A program made the position numbers and the translations under genes. From positions 1 through 41,159 of the IMG/VR virus record IMGVR_UViG_3300030116_004662: DNA of 41,159 nucleotides. One strand, 5' to 3'. This DNA is from a virus. Under the pieces are notes generated by a model. That model saw nothing but the letters and a program-made list of their open reading frames with translations. It did no database searches and was not told the DNA's origin. This document shows positions 20,155 through 27,528 of the stretch, one piece after another. Position 1 is the stretch's first letter. Every line of letters begins with the position of its first letter.

Positions 20155-20911
20155 GATGCGTGTGGGGCGTCGGCGTATAAATGAGGACATCAGCGCAAAC
20201 TTTTTCATAGGGTGAGCCTTTGGCAAACCTAATGCCCTTGAGCTTGAGTTCGCCACAGTGTTTTAAACGCGAGATCTCAAAATCAAGGCGTTTATTAGCC
20301 AGCAGTTGTTTTTGGAGCGCAAGTTGAGTATCAACTGCTGCTTTACATCGTTCTTGCAGTCCACCGTCTAGCGGAATGGTTGCTTGAACAGAAAGGCCAA
20401 CATTCCAGTTGTGGTTATCTTTTTGCCCGGTGCGTGTGTCTTTGAAGAACAGGGTGTCCCCAGGATTGTCTAAGCGACCGTCGTCATCTAAATCAGAAAG
20501 GTCATAAACCGGATCTGGGTAGCTGTACTCGTAAGGCAGCCCCCATGATTTGGTGCGGTTGAGATATGGCGTAAAGGTCAACGTCGGGCCTTGACATTGA
20601 ATGTTGCCGCCATAAGTATTAGTAATCGCTGAACCTTGAAGGATTTGCACTGCTTGGTTACTAACTGACCCAGACGATGTGGCAGTTGGAGAAGCGGTTG
20701 CAGAGATACCGCCAACATCTTGGGCGTTGACTGGAGCGGTGGCAATTATTCCGAGAAGGAGGAGACCGTATCGGTAACGCTTGTGATTTCGGTGGTGCGT
20801 TGAATGGTCGTGATGTTCGACAACCCTGGCCCCTTCAGACTTTCGACAAATTGAAATGCTTCTCCTGGCCTGACGATTGACCAGTTTGGTCGCGCTCCTA
20901 AGGAGGTCCAT
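20114..20911 (-). CDS. secreted conserved protein of cyanophage type (start uncertain)
   Basis: The protein has a signal-peptide-like core (RYGLLLLGIIATAPVNAQDV) followed by ASPTATSSGSVSNQAVQILQ, TNTYGGNIQCQGPTLTFTPY, an acidic DLSDLDDDGRLDNPGD segment and a C-terminal helix with LALQKQLLANKRLDFEISRL and two cysteines. From memory, similar exported proteins of unknown role occur in marine cyanophages and their hosts. The only ATG lies at 20911, about 49 residues before the hydrophobic core and 166 bases inside the upstream gene, with no Shine-Dalgarno. The true start may be a non-ATG codon nearer the core, or translation may be coupled to the upstream stop at 20746. Third gene of a leftward operon of exported proteins. 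Confidence 0.6.
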   Translation of the reverse strand: MDLLRSATKLVNRQARRSISICRKSEGARVVEHHDHSTHHRNHKRYRYGLLLLGIIATAPVNAQDVGGISATASPTATSSGSVSNQAVQILQGSAITNTYGGNIQCQGPTLTFTPYLNRTKSWGLPYEYSYPDPVYDLSDLDDDGRLDNPGDTLFFKDTRTGQKDNHNWNVGLSVQATIPLDGGLQERCKAAVDTQLALQKQLLANKRLDFEISRLKHCGELKLKGIRFAKGSPYEKVCADVLIYTPTPHTHLIPSTTSATHVEH

Positions 20912-22111: not shown

Positions 22112-22858
22112 GTGTCCGGCATTATCCAAGTGATCTTGCTGCTGCTGGCCATGGGTCTTGCTCTACTGCCGTTTTTTCAGTTTTTCCGTGGTACGCCCCA
22201 CCAGCTGGCTGCAATTAAACAGCTTGAGGAGTCAATGCCAGCGGAATTACTGGAGGAGCACGAGGCAGATTGGTTTCAGGCGTGGAAAGAAAGTGGGTAT
22301 GACCAGCAGATCTATATGCCCTACTTCAGACAGCTCGACAACAAGACTGGAACGGGATACCGCGAGTGTTTCAGTTCAGCGGCTGCGATGGTGGCAGCGT
22401 TTTACAAGAAGGTCAAAACAGATGATGAGTACAACGAGATCCGTGCTCAGTTTGGCGATACGACTTCAGTTGACGCGCAGCTCTTAGCCTTAGGAACGCT
22501 TGGCTTAAAAGCTGAGTTCCGAAAGGATGGTGATGCTGACATGGTGGAGCTTGAAATCGAAAACGGTAGACCAGTGTTGGTTGGCTGGTTGCACGCTGGA
22601 AACATGCTCCGTGGCGAACCACCAATGTGCAATGGCCTTGGCTGTGGCCATTGGAGCGTTATCAGTGGTTACGCAGGCAAGAACAGCAACGATCCAGAGT
22701 GGATCATGCAAGATCCTCGTGGCTACCCAGAAATGGAGAAAGGTGGTCACAGCAATCCGCATCTGGGACGTAACGTCCGTGTGCGACAGGCAGCGTTTTA
22801 TCAGCGTTGGCAGGCTGAAGGCCCTGGTACGGGTTGGGTGATTTTGGTTAGCGAGTAA
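22112..22858 (+). CDS. membrane-anchored C39-like peptidase (possible endolysin)
   Basis: A 248-residue protein. Residues 4-25 (IIQVILLLLAMGLALLPFFQ) form a signal anchor. The rest fits the peptidase C39-like fold: a YRECFSSAAAMVAAFYKKV segment with the candidate catalytic cysteine, RPVLVGWLHAGN, then GCGHWSVISGYAG with the histidine, and a late WIMQDPRG with the aspartate. C39-like enzymes are papain-type cysteine peptidases. In a phage without another visible endolysin, an exported peptidase next to a holin candidate is a plausible signal-anchor-release lysin acting on peptidoglycan cross-links; it might instead mature a secreted phage protein. The start is GTG at 22112. Confidence 0.65.
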   Translation: MSGIIQVILLLLAMGLALLPFFQFFRGTPHQLAAIKQLEESMPAELLEEHEADWFQAWKESGYDQQIYMPYFRQLDNKTGTGYRECFSSAAAMVAAFYKKVKTDDEYNEIRAQFGDTTSVDAQLLALGTLGLKAEFRKDGDADMVELEIENGRPVLVGWLHAGNMLRGEPPMCNGLGCGHWSVISGYAGKNSNDPEWIMQDPRGYPEMEKGGHSNPHLGRNVRVRQAAFYQRWQAEGPGTGWVILVSE

Positions 22859-22911: not shown

Positions 22912-23127
22912 ATGGGCTGGGCAGATTGGATGGTTGTCCACCAGAGCCTTGAGGAGGAGCTGGAGTTAGAGCGTAATGTTCGAGACGTGCAGAGTTGCAC
23001 GGATGAAAGTGCGTTGAAAACGCTGTGCGTGACCTTGGTTCGGACTAACTGGCACCAGGCAAAGCTGCTCAAACAAGCAGTAGGCCACATTGGTCAGTTG
23101 GATGCGTCGATGACTTGCTCTGATTGA
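22912..23127 (+). CDS. small conserved cyanophage-type protein, 71 aa
   Basis: The protein reads MGWADWMVVHQSLEEELELE, then RNVRDVQSC, then LVRTNWHQAKLLKQAVGHIG. From memory, the order of an E-E-x-x-L-E-R start and a W-H-Q-A-K-L-L-K-Q-A-V-x-H-I core is widespread in marine cyanophages. Helical, cytoplasmic, role unknown. Its last 34 bases overlap the convergent gene at 23094. Confidence 0.6.
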   Translation: MGWADWMVVHQSLEEELELERNVRDVQSCTDESALKTLCVTLVRTNWHQAKLLKQAVGHIGQLDASMTCSD

Positions 23128-23399
23128 ATAAGCCTGTCTAAATCAAGAGCTTCCCAAGCCTTTCTAGCTTTGCCTTCAACTTTGGCATTGATGCCCTCTT
23201 GACGTTTCATTTGGTCAAAAGCCTCTGCCTCTGCAAAAGCAGCTTCGTCAAAGTTGTCCTGAATGTATTTGTAGGCAAGTTCACGAAGCAGTACAGACGG
23301 TTTTGTATCAAACTTCTTGGCTAGCTTTAAGAATAGATCTCCTTTAGCAGGCTCAAACAGCACTTGGATGTTAAGGCGATAGCCGTGCTTTCGTGCCAC
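23094..23399 (-). CDS. hypothetical protein with RHH-like features, 101 aa
   Basis: The start is GTG at 23399. An N-terminal strand-like segment (HGYRLNIQVLFEPAKGDLF) followed by helices (KLAKKFDTKPSVLLRELAYK) resembles the strand-helix-helix layout of small ribbon-helix-helix regulators, though without a clear signature. The second half is charged and helical. Possible DNA-binding protein; low certainty. Confidence 0.45.
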   Translation of the reverse strand: MARKHGYRLNIQVLFEPAKGDLFLKLAKKFDTKPSVLLRELAYKYIQDNFDEAAFAEAEAFDQMKRQEGINAKVEGKARKAWEALDLDRLIQSEQVIDASN

Positions 23400-24246: not shown

Positions 24247-24390
24247 TTACTTACGTCTCTTAGGTTTTTTTCTTTTTTGAGACGGTTTGACACGCGGCTT
24301 GTCTGGCTTGGACTGTAGACGAGCGATGGTCTCGTGATAGCCAGGGGGCTCTGGAACGTTGCCCCGCTTCAAGATTTCAGTCCAATTCAT
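24247..24390 (-). CDS. small basic protein with PEPPGYHET motif, 47 aa
   Basis: The ATG at 24390 gives MNWTEILKRGNVPEPPGYHE followed by a strongly basic tail ending KKPKRRK. A W-x-x-I-L-x-R-x-x-V-P-E-P-P-G-Y motif recurs in small proteins of phages from several hosts, without an assigned role. A longer start at 24471 is possible but would cross the GGGGACA array. It follows the primase on the same strand. Confidence 0.5.
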   Translation of the reverse strand: MNWTEILKRGNVPEPPGYHETIARLQSKPDKPRVKPSQKRKKPKRRK

Positions 24391-24415
24391 GTCTCGCGCG
24401 TATAAATGAAAAAAA

Positions 24416-24619
24416 TGTCCCCAAAGCCCAGATGCCAGTCGTACCAATGGGTTTGGGTGGGGACAGGGCATGGGGACACCTAGATTTGTCCCTGTTCTTC
24501 CTCGCTAAAGTCAACCTCAACCGTTCCATTCATCAGATGGGGACAAGTGAGTGTGTCCCCATCCTGTTGTCCCCCATCAGATCCGTTGTCAACACTGGCA
24601 TACGTACCAGAGGGGGACA
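24416..24619. repeat. mirror-symmetric GGGGACA array in a long imperfect inverted repeat
   Basis: Copies of GGGGACA lie on the + strand at 24459, 24472, 24539 and 24613 and on the - strand (TGTCCCC) at 24416, 24554 and 24568; a 6-base copy, TGTCCC, is at 24487. The order - + + - then + - - + is its own reverse complement, and start-to-start gaps are nearly mirrored (43, 13, 15, then 52, then 15, 14, 45). ATGCCAGT also occurs in both arms (24432, and inverted at 24594-24601). The arms are therefore two diverged copies of one 77-81 base sequence facing each other around a 46-base centre. The right part lies in codons of the primase C-terminus and the left in the gap after it. Elsewhere I found the 7-mer only once (20455). 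Possible origin, operator or partition-like site. Confidence 0.75.
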
Positions 24620-26756
24620 CCTTCCACACCTCTCCGCACGCGAGGTTTGCCTTGTATTGCTTGGTACGAGACCCTTCTGGGACGTAAGAGACGATTAGCT
24701 GTTGAGATTCCAGCCGCTGGAGCGTTTTCTTGATGGCAGCAGGAGAGCCAGCCACTAAGCGATCCAGGATCAAATCGTTTTTGGTACGAGATTCGGGATG
24801 AGCAACACGAAGGCGGCTGAGAACCCGACCAAGCACCGTCGCTGGAGCGGTGTCATCGAAATCGACCTCAGGAGTGATGTCTTCGATGTAGAAGTTGAGG
24901 TCTTGGTCCTGACCCAGCTTGAGCTTGGTGCCAGAGCGCCCGCAACGGCTCTTCTCAATAGAAATGACCCGTTCATGCTTTTCGATCCGCTCGTCCTTCA
25001 TAAGGCGGTTCTCAAGCTTCTTCTGCTGCTTGATCACTTCAGCGCTGTTTGGGTTCTGAAGCGCCCATGTCTCGTCTACAGCGTCACGGATGGCTGAGGT
25101 GCCACGGAAGCCACCGTTCTTGTTTGCGTGGTGAATGATCAAGATCGTGGTGGCTGGGAACAGGTCACCGTTGTTCTTGGTCAACCAGTACAAGGGATTT
25201 GCGAAGTCAGACTTGTTCTCGTCAAATGCCTTGCCACCAGAGCATCCAATCAAGGAGTCGATGACCACCAGTTTGGGCTTGTAGGTCTCCATCAGCTTGA
25301 TGAACTGGGCGTAGCGCTGAAGCTGCCAGTCGGTCTGGATGAAGGTCTGATCGTTGATTGGGAAGTCGTTCTCAGTCAGCTGCTCCTTGAGCTGAATCAA
25401 CGGCTGATCGCCATTCAAGAGAAGGACAGGACCTTGCTGCACTGGAACGTCAGCGCCACGAACCTTGAAGGCTTTGCCGCTGACAATGTGCTTAGCAAGA
25501 GTCCAAGCGGCTGTGGACTTACCGTCACCACCAGCGCCGTAAATCAGGATGACTGAAGGGTGTGGGAGAACATCAGGGATTAGGTAGCCACGCTTGACTT
25601 CAAGCTCCATCAGCTGCTCAACAGTCATCAGGGATTGAGATTTCTCATAAGCGATCTGATCAACGATCAGCTTTTCAAGAGCGGACTGATCGCGGTAACC
25701 AGCTTGAAGCGCAAGTGAGTTGAGCTTGTAGTTGACCTCAGCAGGGTTATCGATTTCAAGGATGCTCTTAGCACGCTTCATCACCTGCTCGAAATCAAGA
25801 GTTGCGTGGCGAAACTCTTGGACCTTCTTCTCTTCAGCGTCTTTTACGATTTTTTTTGTGTCTTCCGAAAATCGATGACGTTCTGGGTCGGCACGATCCG
25901 CCATCCAAATCAGAGTGCCTAGGCCTACTCCAGAACCTTTGAAGGAGTACCAGGTCTCTTCGCAAGGGTTTTCGTTGTCAGCCCATTCATCAGCGAAATC
26001 AGGATCTTCAGCTGACCAGGCTGACCAAAGGACAAGACCAAGGTCGTTAGGCAGAGCAGAGTGGATCGCCATTCCGACCTTGACCCAATGATCACGACTG
26101 CCTTTGCCTTGGGTCGGAATGACCTTGAGGCAGTCGTTAATGATCTGACAGACCTCATCCCGAGTCCGGTCGCTGAAGTCAAGGTCGCGTTTGATCATGG
26201 CCTTAGGCGGCTGTTTCATCTCAGCCAGCAGCCAGTCGGGCGCGACAGGGATGCGGTTTAGGTCACCTTCTAGATCGTATTGCCCTGGAACGGATACCTT
26301 GCCGCCGGGGTAAGCGCCGTAGATGACGCCCTGACGCTTGCTGTTCCAGAGGATCTCGTAGTCATCCTCATCGCCAAGGCCGCGACCTTCAACCTCATTC
26401 CAAAGCGCTTCTGGAACGCGGAAGATGTATTTGGCGGCGTTTTTCTTGGTTGACGTGACCTTCGGAGCGCCTTCGAGTGTGTCACCCCAGCGAGCGATGA
26501 CTTTGTTGAGGTTGCGGTCAACGTCGAGGATGACGATGCCTTTGCCACGAATGCCAGTGAAGATGCCAACCGCCTGAATGTCAGGGTTGCGCTGAGCCGC
26601 GAGGGCAACGTCTGCTGGGCCTAGCAAGAAATCAAAGGATTCCTTGGTGGGGTTTTTGCCGCCTGCCAGCTTGCCGCCAGGCATTTTGGCTCCCTTGCGG
26701 TAGATGGCTGCGTAGACCAGCGCTTCAGGCAGCGACTTGACGAAATGCGAAAACAT
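24480..26756 (-). CDS. primase-polymerase / replicative helicase
   Basis: A 758-residue multidomain replication protein. Residues 1-180 form a primase-polymerase (AEP-type) domain: FLLGPADVALAAQRNPDIQA, then GIVILDVDRN with the metal-binding D78-x-D80. Residues about 195-290 resemble the PriCT linker domain (SRDHWVKVGMAIHSAL then LWSAWSAED). Residues 395-600 are a RecA-like ATPase with Walker A GAGGDGKST (407-415) and Walker B LVVID (496-500), followed by a TTILIIHHANKNGGFRGTSA block. The C-terminus (about 640-730) looks like a winged helix (LDRLVAGSPAAIKKTLQRLE). It would make primers and unwind the fork; no DNA polymerase is visible, so host polymerase is probably used. The 3' end lies in the GGGGACA array. 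Confidence 0.85.
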   Translation of the reverse strand: MFSHFVKSLPEALVYAAIYRKGAKMPGGKLAGGKNPTKESFDFLLGPADVALAAQRNPDIQAVGIFTGIRGKGIVILDVDRNLNKVIARWGDTLEGAPKVTSTKKNAAKYIFRVPEALWNEVEGRGLGDEDDYEILWNSKRQGVIYGAYPGGKVSVPGQYDLEGDLNRIPVAPDWLLAEMKQPPKAMIKRDLDFSDRTRDEVCQIINDCLKVIPTQGKGSRDHWVKVGMAIHSALPNDLGLVLWSAWSAEDPDFADEWADNENPCEETWYSFKGSGVGLGTLIWMADRADPERHRFSEDTKKIVKDAEEKKVQEFRHATLDFEQVMKRAKSILEIDNPAEVNYKLNSLALQAGYRDQSALEKLIVDQIAYEKSQSLMTVEQLMELEVKRGYLIPDVLPHPSVILIYGAGGDGKSTAAWTLAKHIVSGKAFKVRGADVPVQQGPVLLLNGDQPLIQLKEQLTENDFPINDQTFIQTDWQLQRYAQFIKLMETYKPKLVVIDSLIGCSGGKAFDENKSDFANPLYWLTKNNGDLFPATTILIIHHANKNGGFRGTSAIRDAVDETWALQNPNSAEVIKQQKKLENRLMKDERIEKHERVISIEKSRCGRSGTKLKLGQDQDLNFYIEDITPEVDFDDTAPATVLGRVLSRLRVAHPESRTKNDLILDRLVAGSPAAIKKTLQRLESQQLIVSYVPEGSRTKQYKANLACGEVWKVSPSGTYASVDNGSDGGQQDGDTLTCPHLMNGTVEVDFSEEEQGQI

Positions 26757-26925: not shown

Positions 26926-27528
26926 GTGAATCTTTCCGATTCTTATCTCTCGCTCATTAACAGCGACAACGAAGGAGGCTCCTCTACCGAGAGCTATTTG
27001 CGTTACACGAAGCTAGAGCAAGGCAAGCCTGCAAACTTTGCCCTGCTTGAGCAAGACCCGCTTCAATACTGGCTTGTCTGGGGAGTTGATGCCAACGAGA
27101 AGATGAAACCTTTTCGTTTCATGAATCAGCCAACAGCTGAAGAAATCAATCTCGAATTGGGCAATGATTACAGCCAGTGCCTCAATTACGACAAAACCGG
27201 TGTACGCAAACCGGTTGAATGTCTCACTTGGCCTGTTTACAACTGGGACATAAATCAGGTTCAAGTCCTTGAGGTCGCACACATCTCATTGGGCCGTCAG
27301 TTCGCCAAGTATGGCCTGAACAAGAAGTACAACAAGAACTTGTTGGACTGGGACTTCGAGCTGTCGAAGATCAAAGCTGACATGGTGCGCTACGAGTTGC
27401 TGATCGTTCCTCGTGACGAGGACGAGCATGACGAGGTGGCGATGGCGAAAGCCTGGAAAGCCACTGAGAAGGCTGGCTTCGACCTAAATCGGATCGTGGT
27501 TGGCGGTGATCCGTTCAGCGAGGGTTGA
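26926..27528 (+). CDS. ssDNA-binding protein candidate
   Basis: A 200-residue protein starting at GTG 26926. Residues about 25-150 have an oligonucleotide-binding-fold-like order of strands with aromatic residues: LRYTKLEQGKPANFALLEQD, then YWLVWGVDANEKMKPFRFMN, VECLTWPVYNWDINQVQVLE, and FELSKIKADMVRYELLIVP. The W-P-V-Y-N followed by V-Q-V-L-E is like phage ssDNA-binding proteins that have a zinc-free OB core, but the C-terminus (GGDPFSEG) is only weakly acidic. Its place opposite the primase and before a nuclease supports a replication or recombination role. No exact family is claimed. Confidence 0.45.
   Translation: MNLSDSYLSLINSDNEGGSSTESYLRYTKLEQGKPANFALLEQDPLQYWLVWGVDANEKMKPFRFMNQPTAEEINLELGNDYSQCLNYDKTGVRKPVECLTWPVYNWDINQVQVLEVAHISLGRQFAKYGLNKKYNKNLLDWDFELSKIKADMVRYELLIVPRDEDEHDEVAMAKAWKATEKAGFDLNRIVVGGDPFSEG

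Follow-up and report, generated by a model that had tools for sequence, protein, structure and literature searches.

In phage lambda the origin of replication lies inside the initiator gene, where the iterons are direct repeats in mid-gene, and the O protein recruits the host helicase. In the plasmid pRN1, by comparison, it is the region directly 3' of the gene for a primase-helicase-winged-helix protein, ORF904, that is needed for plasmid replication (PMC4234260), and a pRN1-like origin has been proposed for the Bordetella phages BIP-1 and BPP-1 (PMC4234260). In P4, the alpha protein is a primase-helicase whose winged helix binds the origin repeats (PMC4234260), and at oriV of RSF1010, which includes ssiA and ssiB, the iterons with their binder RepC, the RepA helicase and the RepB' primase act together (PMC4234260).

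Here we describe a mirror-symmetric array of short sites in a viral genome record (IMG/VR IMGVR_UViG_3300030116_004662, positions 1 to 41,159, hereafter the window), which is very probably a landing pad for P0001, the replication protein encoded beside it. Like ORF904, P0001 joins a primase, a helicase and a C-terminal winged helix in one protein, and the array lies directly 3' of its winged-helix segment, as the pRN1 origin lies downstream of ORF904. P0001 further shares the PriCT_2 domain with the BIP-1 protein; however, pRN1 and BIP-1 employ an SF3 helicase where P0001 has a RepA/RecA-like one, and they are proposed to use a single large stem-loop where we find a symmetric, multi-site iteron array. 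P4 alpha is likewise a primase-helicase with a winged helix, but its primase is of the Toprim type, unlike that of P0001, and the P4 repeats are laid out differently from the mirror array of this phage. RSF1010 RepA is among the solved helicases nearest to P0001, but the functions that RSF1010 distributes over three separate proteins are found here in one chain. With lambda, the array has in common the placement of iterons inside an initiator gene.

An array of inverted sites at the end of a primase-helicase gene

The array spans 204 bases (24416-24619) and consists of seven exact copies of GGGGACA and one six-base copy, GGGACA, in the order - + + - / + - - +, framed by two outer boxes:

24392-24404: far-side outer box, reading TATACGCGCGAGA on the strand of the primase and approximately inverse to the primase-side box
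24416-24422, minus strand: S6, GGGGACA, outer site, beyond the primase gene on its 3' side, position conserved in relatives
24459-24465, plus strand: S5, GGGGACA, pairs with S6 at 43 bp
24472-24478, plus strand: S5b, GGGGACA, extra inner copy
24487-24492, minus strand: S4, the six-base copy GGGACA
24522-24528, minus strand: TGGAACG in the central spacer, on the strand opposite most genome copies
24539-24545, plus strand: S3, GGGGACA
24554-24560, minus strand: S2b, GGGGACA, extra inner copy
24568-24574, minus strand: S2, GGGGACA
24613-24619, plus strand: S1, GGGGACA, outer site within the primase frame
24630-24645: primase-side outer box, reading CCTCGCGTGCGGAGAG on the strand of the primase; most clades conserve it

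An earlier note on this DNA had counted eight copies of GGGGACA, one of which (24487-24492) is only the 6-mer; the order and the gaps it gave between sites were recovered at the same positions, as was its one further 7-mer outside the array, at 20455. It had also described the two halves as inverted copies of about 80 bases, which holds for parts of them, with an inverted match of 23 bases at 78%, and had the array overlap the primase gene, which is true of five of the eight sites, the frame ending at 24480 and three sites lying beyond the stop. GGGACA occurs 20 times in the whole window, 8 of them within the array. As plain k-mer shuffles allowed self-overlapping, low-complexity words, which reached 7-8 copies in a few shuffles, clustering was tested by counting non-overlapping 6-mer copies per 300-base stretch; by this measure the array holds 8 copies and the best stretch elsewhere in the window 6. 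An ORF at 24247-24471 overlaps the array, and its start probably lies later, near 24390 (MNWTEIL), as suggested by a start conserved in relatives.

The replication protein P0001 and its winged helix

The gene that the array adjoins, and the parts of it that matter below, are:

24480-26756, minus strand: P0001, 758 residues, with an N-terminal primase-type part, PriCT_2, a RecA/RepA-like helicase and a C-terminal winged helix
24648-24836, minus strand: winged-helix domain of P0001, about residues 641-703, proposed binder of the array (from the model and its fold match)
24705-24743, minus strand: recognition helix, residues 672-684
24717-24719, minus strand: codon of Q680, whose identity tracks the site sequence in relatives
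24729-24731, minus strand: codon of K676, whose identity does likewise

The N-terminal part of P0001 matches phage primase families, and its RecA-like ATPase corresponds to the AAA_25 domain. The AlphaFold model of the full chain is of moderate confidence (mean pLDDT 71), and comparison of its helicase part with known structures gave RadA, RSF1010 RepA, DnaB and KaiC as the nearest folds. When modelled alone, the C-terminal domain forms a winged helix of three helices and two strands (mean pLDDT 73) with a fold match to MarR-like winged helices. A Pfam sequence search with P0001's own winged helix gave no family match; the winged helices of its relatives gave weak matches to the TrmB, GntR and MarR families.

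Residues 35-286 are also similar to the CyRepA1 proteins of cyanobacterial plasmids, a likeness in sequence of about 30% identity. One such plasmid, pANS, carries a cluster of palindromic CTGTTAACAG copies (L274:4369-4555), a possible iteron cluster, which is placed about 1.3 kb downstream of its CyRepA1 gene, rep, and does not form an array at the rep end. Together with the terminase and portal, whose nearest counterparts among annotated records are those of cyanophage S-2L, the resemblance to CyRepA1 makes a cyanobacterial host likely. The phage contigs L121-L125 are binned under varied bacteria (proteobacteria, Microbacteriaceae, Planctomycetota) and are most likely misbinned phage DNA.

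Conservation of the array across relatives

Close relatives of P0001 are carried by hundreds of environmental contigs, and by none of the isolated or cultured phages in the collection searched. Scans of viral contigs yielded a few hundred related loci, about 250 of them distinct, with primase-helicases that are 44-86% identical to P0001 (in the first 62 relatives). In these ~250 loci the array is kept together with the similar primase, at the same position just 3' of the winged-helix segment and with the same layout, which supports the earlier note's view that a replication gene here contains sites resembling iterons. When repeated 6-mers were counted de novo, with the motif not supplied but ties favouring words with GACA, the array was recovered at this place in nearly all loci, and in 183 of 207 loci the array region scored above every one of 20 random windows drawn from the same locus. 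At least five sites are present in 239 of the 250 distinct loci, and 184 show both outer pairs.

The common layout reads S1 <, S2 >, S3 <, variable centre, S4 >, S5 <, S6 >, with mostly 42-46 bp between S1 and S2 and 43-45 bp between S5 and S6. The inner steps, S2-S3 and S4-S5, measure either 25-28 bp, mostly 27-28, or 17 bp, two spacings that differ by about one helical turn, and an extra site is often found between S2 and S3, and also between S4 and S5. The array thereby has the helical-repeat spacing of iteron-type origins (inner steps of 27-28 or 17 bp), and also their clustering, with several short sites in or adjoining a putative initiator gene. L254 and its relatives have a denser array, with copies every 10 bp in two runs of four. 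Outside the sites, 179 of 223 loci have a CTCG box close to S1 and 103 of 184 have the far-side outer box; in many clades the array is flanked by outer boxes of the CTCGYGCGGGGAG kind, and these boxes stay constant while the site changes. The end of the BPP-1 primase gene yielded no such array; neither did S-CBS4 and ctyzp037, the nearest cultured relatives of the helicase.

As to other genes around the locus, a 200-residue protein divergent from the primase (26926-27528) and without a Pfam match is encoded in 188 of the 250 related loci, a second RHH-like small protein (23094-23399) in 144 of the 250, at varying distance from the array, and the gene at 22112-22858, between small early genes, has weak peptidase C39/C70-like matches.

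Site sequence and recognition helix change together

Between clades, all sites of a locus switch jointly, to GGGACA, TGGACA, AGGACA, CGGACA or GCGACA. GACA is constant across these site classes, partly because later searches looked for it, although the de novo counts found it unprompted. The site sequence tracks two residues of the recognition helix, 676 and 680, which are four apart and so lie on one face of it. At position 676, Arg or Lys is present in 158 of 176 loci of the GGGACA class, His or Gln in 22 of 27 of the TGGACA class and Gly in 14 of 20 of the AGGACA class. All 27 loci whose dominant site contains a C have Asp or Glu at position 680, which otherwise occurs in only 2 loci (27/29), and a C-containing site accompanies Gln680 in none of 221 loci. 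When the 86 variable columns of the winged helix were ranked by their association with site class after dereplication, residue 680 came first (z 12.6; next column 5.7), while the best columns in four neighbouring proteins reached z 5.8, 5.2, 3.0 and 1.5. Residue 676 is outside the ten top-ranked columns of this ranking, and what speaks for it are the contingency tables, along with separate switches seen elsewhere among the clades (L214, L242, L325).

The correspondence has exceptions, namely R676 with AGGACA (5 loci) or TGGACA (3), A/S676 with GGGACA (18) and D680 with GGGACA (1). On a tree computed without the winged-helix domain there are at least 12 changes of site class and about four changes involving an acidic residue 680, and tree-corrected tests of the pairs were not significant, the independent events being too few. 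Given these few events, the exceptions, and the fact that both residues were chosen after inspecting the data, we regard the covariation as strong support, short of proof, for P0001's own winged helix as the predicted reader of the sites. That hundreds of phages keep the layout while the sites and the DNA-reading residues change together is the reason for which we take the array to be a landing pad for this protein.

Alternative readings of the array

One alternative is that the array works as a folded origin, in which the sites matter only as stems. Neighbouring sites are complementary, a single strand of the array folds somewhat better than shuffles (z -2.1), and large stem-loops have been proposed for pRN1 and BIP-1 (PMC4234260). 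But local complementarity would suffice for stems, and yet all sites of a locus, including same-strand neighbours, share one sequence; the 10-bp phased copies in L254 are direct, and a protein recognition helix tracks the site sequence. A single cruciform, as the earlier note had envisaged, leaves unexplained why each clade has one shared site sequence, same-strand copies included, and we consider a stem-loop or cruciform origin improbable.

It is also improbable that P0001 binds the array to control transcription, of its own gene or of those downstream, rather than to start replication. Initiators often autoregulate, and the array precedes downstream genes; however, the primase start is more than 2 kb away, a search around the array turned up no sigma-70-like promoter, and the downstream genes vary between clades where the array stays.

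A different reader is conceivable, since P0003 (23974-24237), which adjoins the array, has weak RHH matches, and RHH proteins frequently recognise short heptads in direct and inverted orientation. The array would then be an operator or partition site, for P0003 or for the RHH-like protein at 23094-23399, comparable to the heptads of CopG, ParG and omega. Linkage of the P0003 gene to the array in all members, however, was not observed: its homologues occur in 67 of 250 loci and are missing from the GCGACA, AGGACA and CGGACA classes, so that the protein, put forward earlier as a partner, is missing from most clades and is not a conserved partner. The 23094 protein is found in 0 of 13 CGGACA loci, where short flanks may hide it, and the best columns of the two proteins against site class reach only z 3.0 (P0003) and 5.2 (23094 protein). 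We consider this reading quite improbable.

Inverted sites with outer inverted boxes, such as are found here, can resemble recombinase or terminase sites, but a role in packaging or recombination is highly improbable, the terminase (34925) being about 10 kb away and the array following the primase winged-helix segment in relatives.

Selection on the sites as DNA

In the clade of the window (27 loci), 44 of 48 site bases are invariant, compared with 46 of 174 in the spacers and 70 of 150 in the coding stretch before the array, in line with the earlier proposal that the sites persist despite coding constraint. The primase stop codon falls after all sites in 105 loci and inside the array in 81; in 53 it precedes most sites, the frame covering at most two; in most loci, the coding sites fall in two or three reading frames. 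Because the stop shifts relative to the array and the sites occupy several frames, the sites are selected as DNA. That they are a by-product of repetitive protein sequence, as the primase frame running through the array in several clades might suggest, is mainly refuted by their presence on both strands, in different frames and past the stop, and retains a negligible probability.

Strand asymmetry and the TGGARCG word

The most over-represented 7-mer of the window is TGGARCG, with 75 copies against about 10 expected and a strand bias of 56 to 19, whatever the gene direction. It lies mainly on the strand opposite the primase in all 20 of the 20 records searched. Upstream of the primase the polarity is more pronounced (569 to 18) than it is downstream (351 to 192). 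Inside the arrays the word is inverted (93 to 6 in dereplicated arrays) and about twentyfold enriched over the same strand elsewhere. In the freshwater-type clades, which are more distant, the leading words are related ones such as GCTCCAG, and in S-2L and S-H1 TGGARCG is neither clearly enriched nor polar.

The cumulative plus-strand GC skew climbs almost throughout the window (1-41159), and neither it nor the polarity of TGGARCG flips at the array, which argues against the bidirectional origin of the earlier note, at least in the simple form that leaves a lasting strand asymmetry. TGGARCG may mark the direction of priming, recombination or packaging. More specifically, it could be the start signal of the phage primase, placed on one strand genome-wide for a mainly one-way replication and inverted in the array for the first strand; we hold this to be possible but doubtful. 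If true, the origin and a genome-wide TGGARCG priming code would belong to a single system, read by one protein.

A predicted origin for a group of phages

We think it likely that the array is the replication origin of this phage, or its core, with each GGGACA site bound by the winged helix of P0001. By analogy with P4 alpha, RSF1010 and pRN1 (PMC4234260), the C-terminal winged helix would bind each site, the two inverted halves of the array, with three or four sites each, would build a symmetric complex, this complex would load the rings of the RepA-like helicase, and the primase domain of P0001 would prime within the opened spacers. The array is accordingly best read, from its sequence and its relatives, as a putative origin of inverted iterons bound by their own initiator, a variant of the P4, RSF1010 and pRN1 origins.

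The array supplies this group of phages with a predicted origin and names the domain predicted to bind it, and it bears on the binding location of initiators that, like that of pRN1, combine primase, helicase and winged helix. The natural changes in site and recognition helix make the specificity between initiator and origin directly testable.
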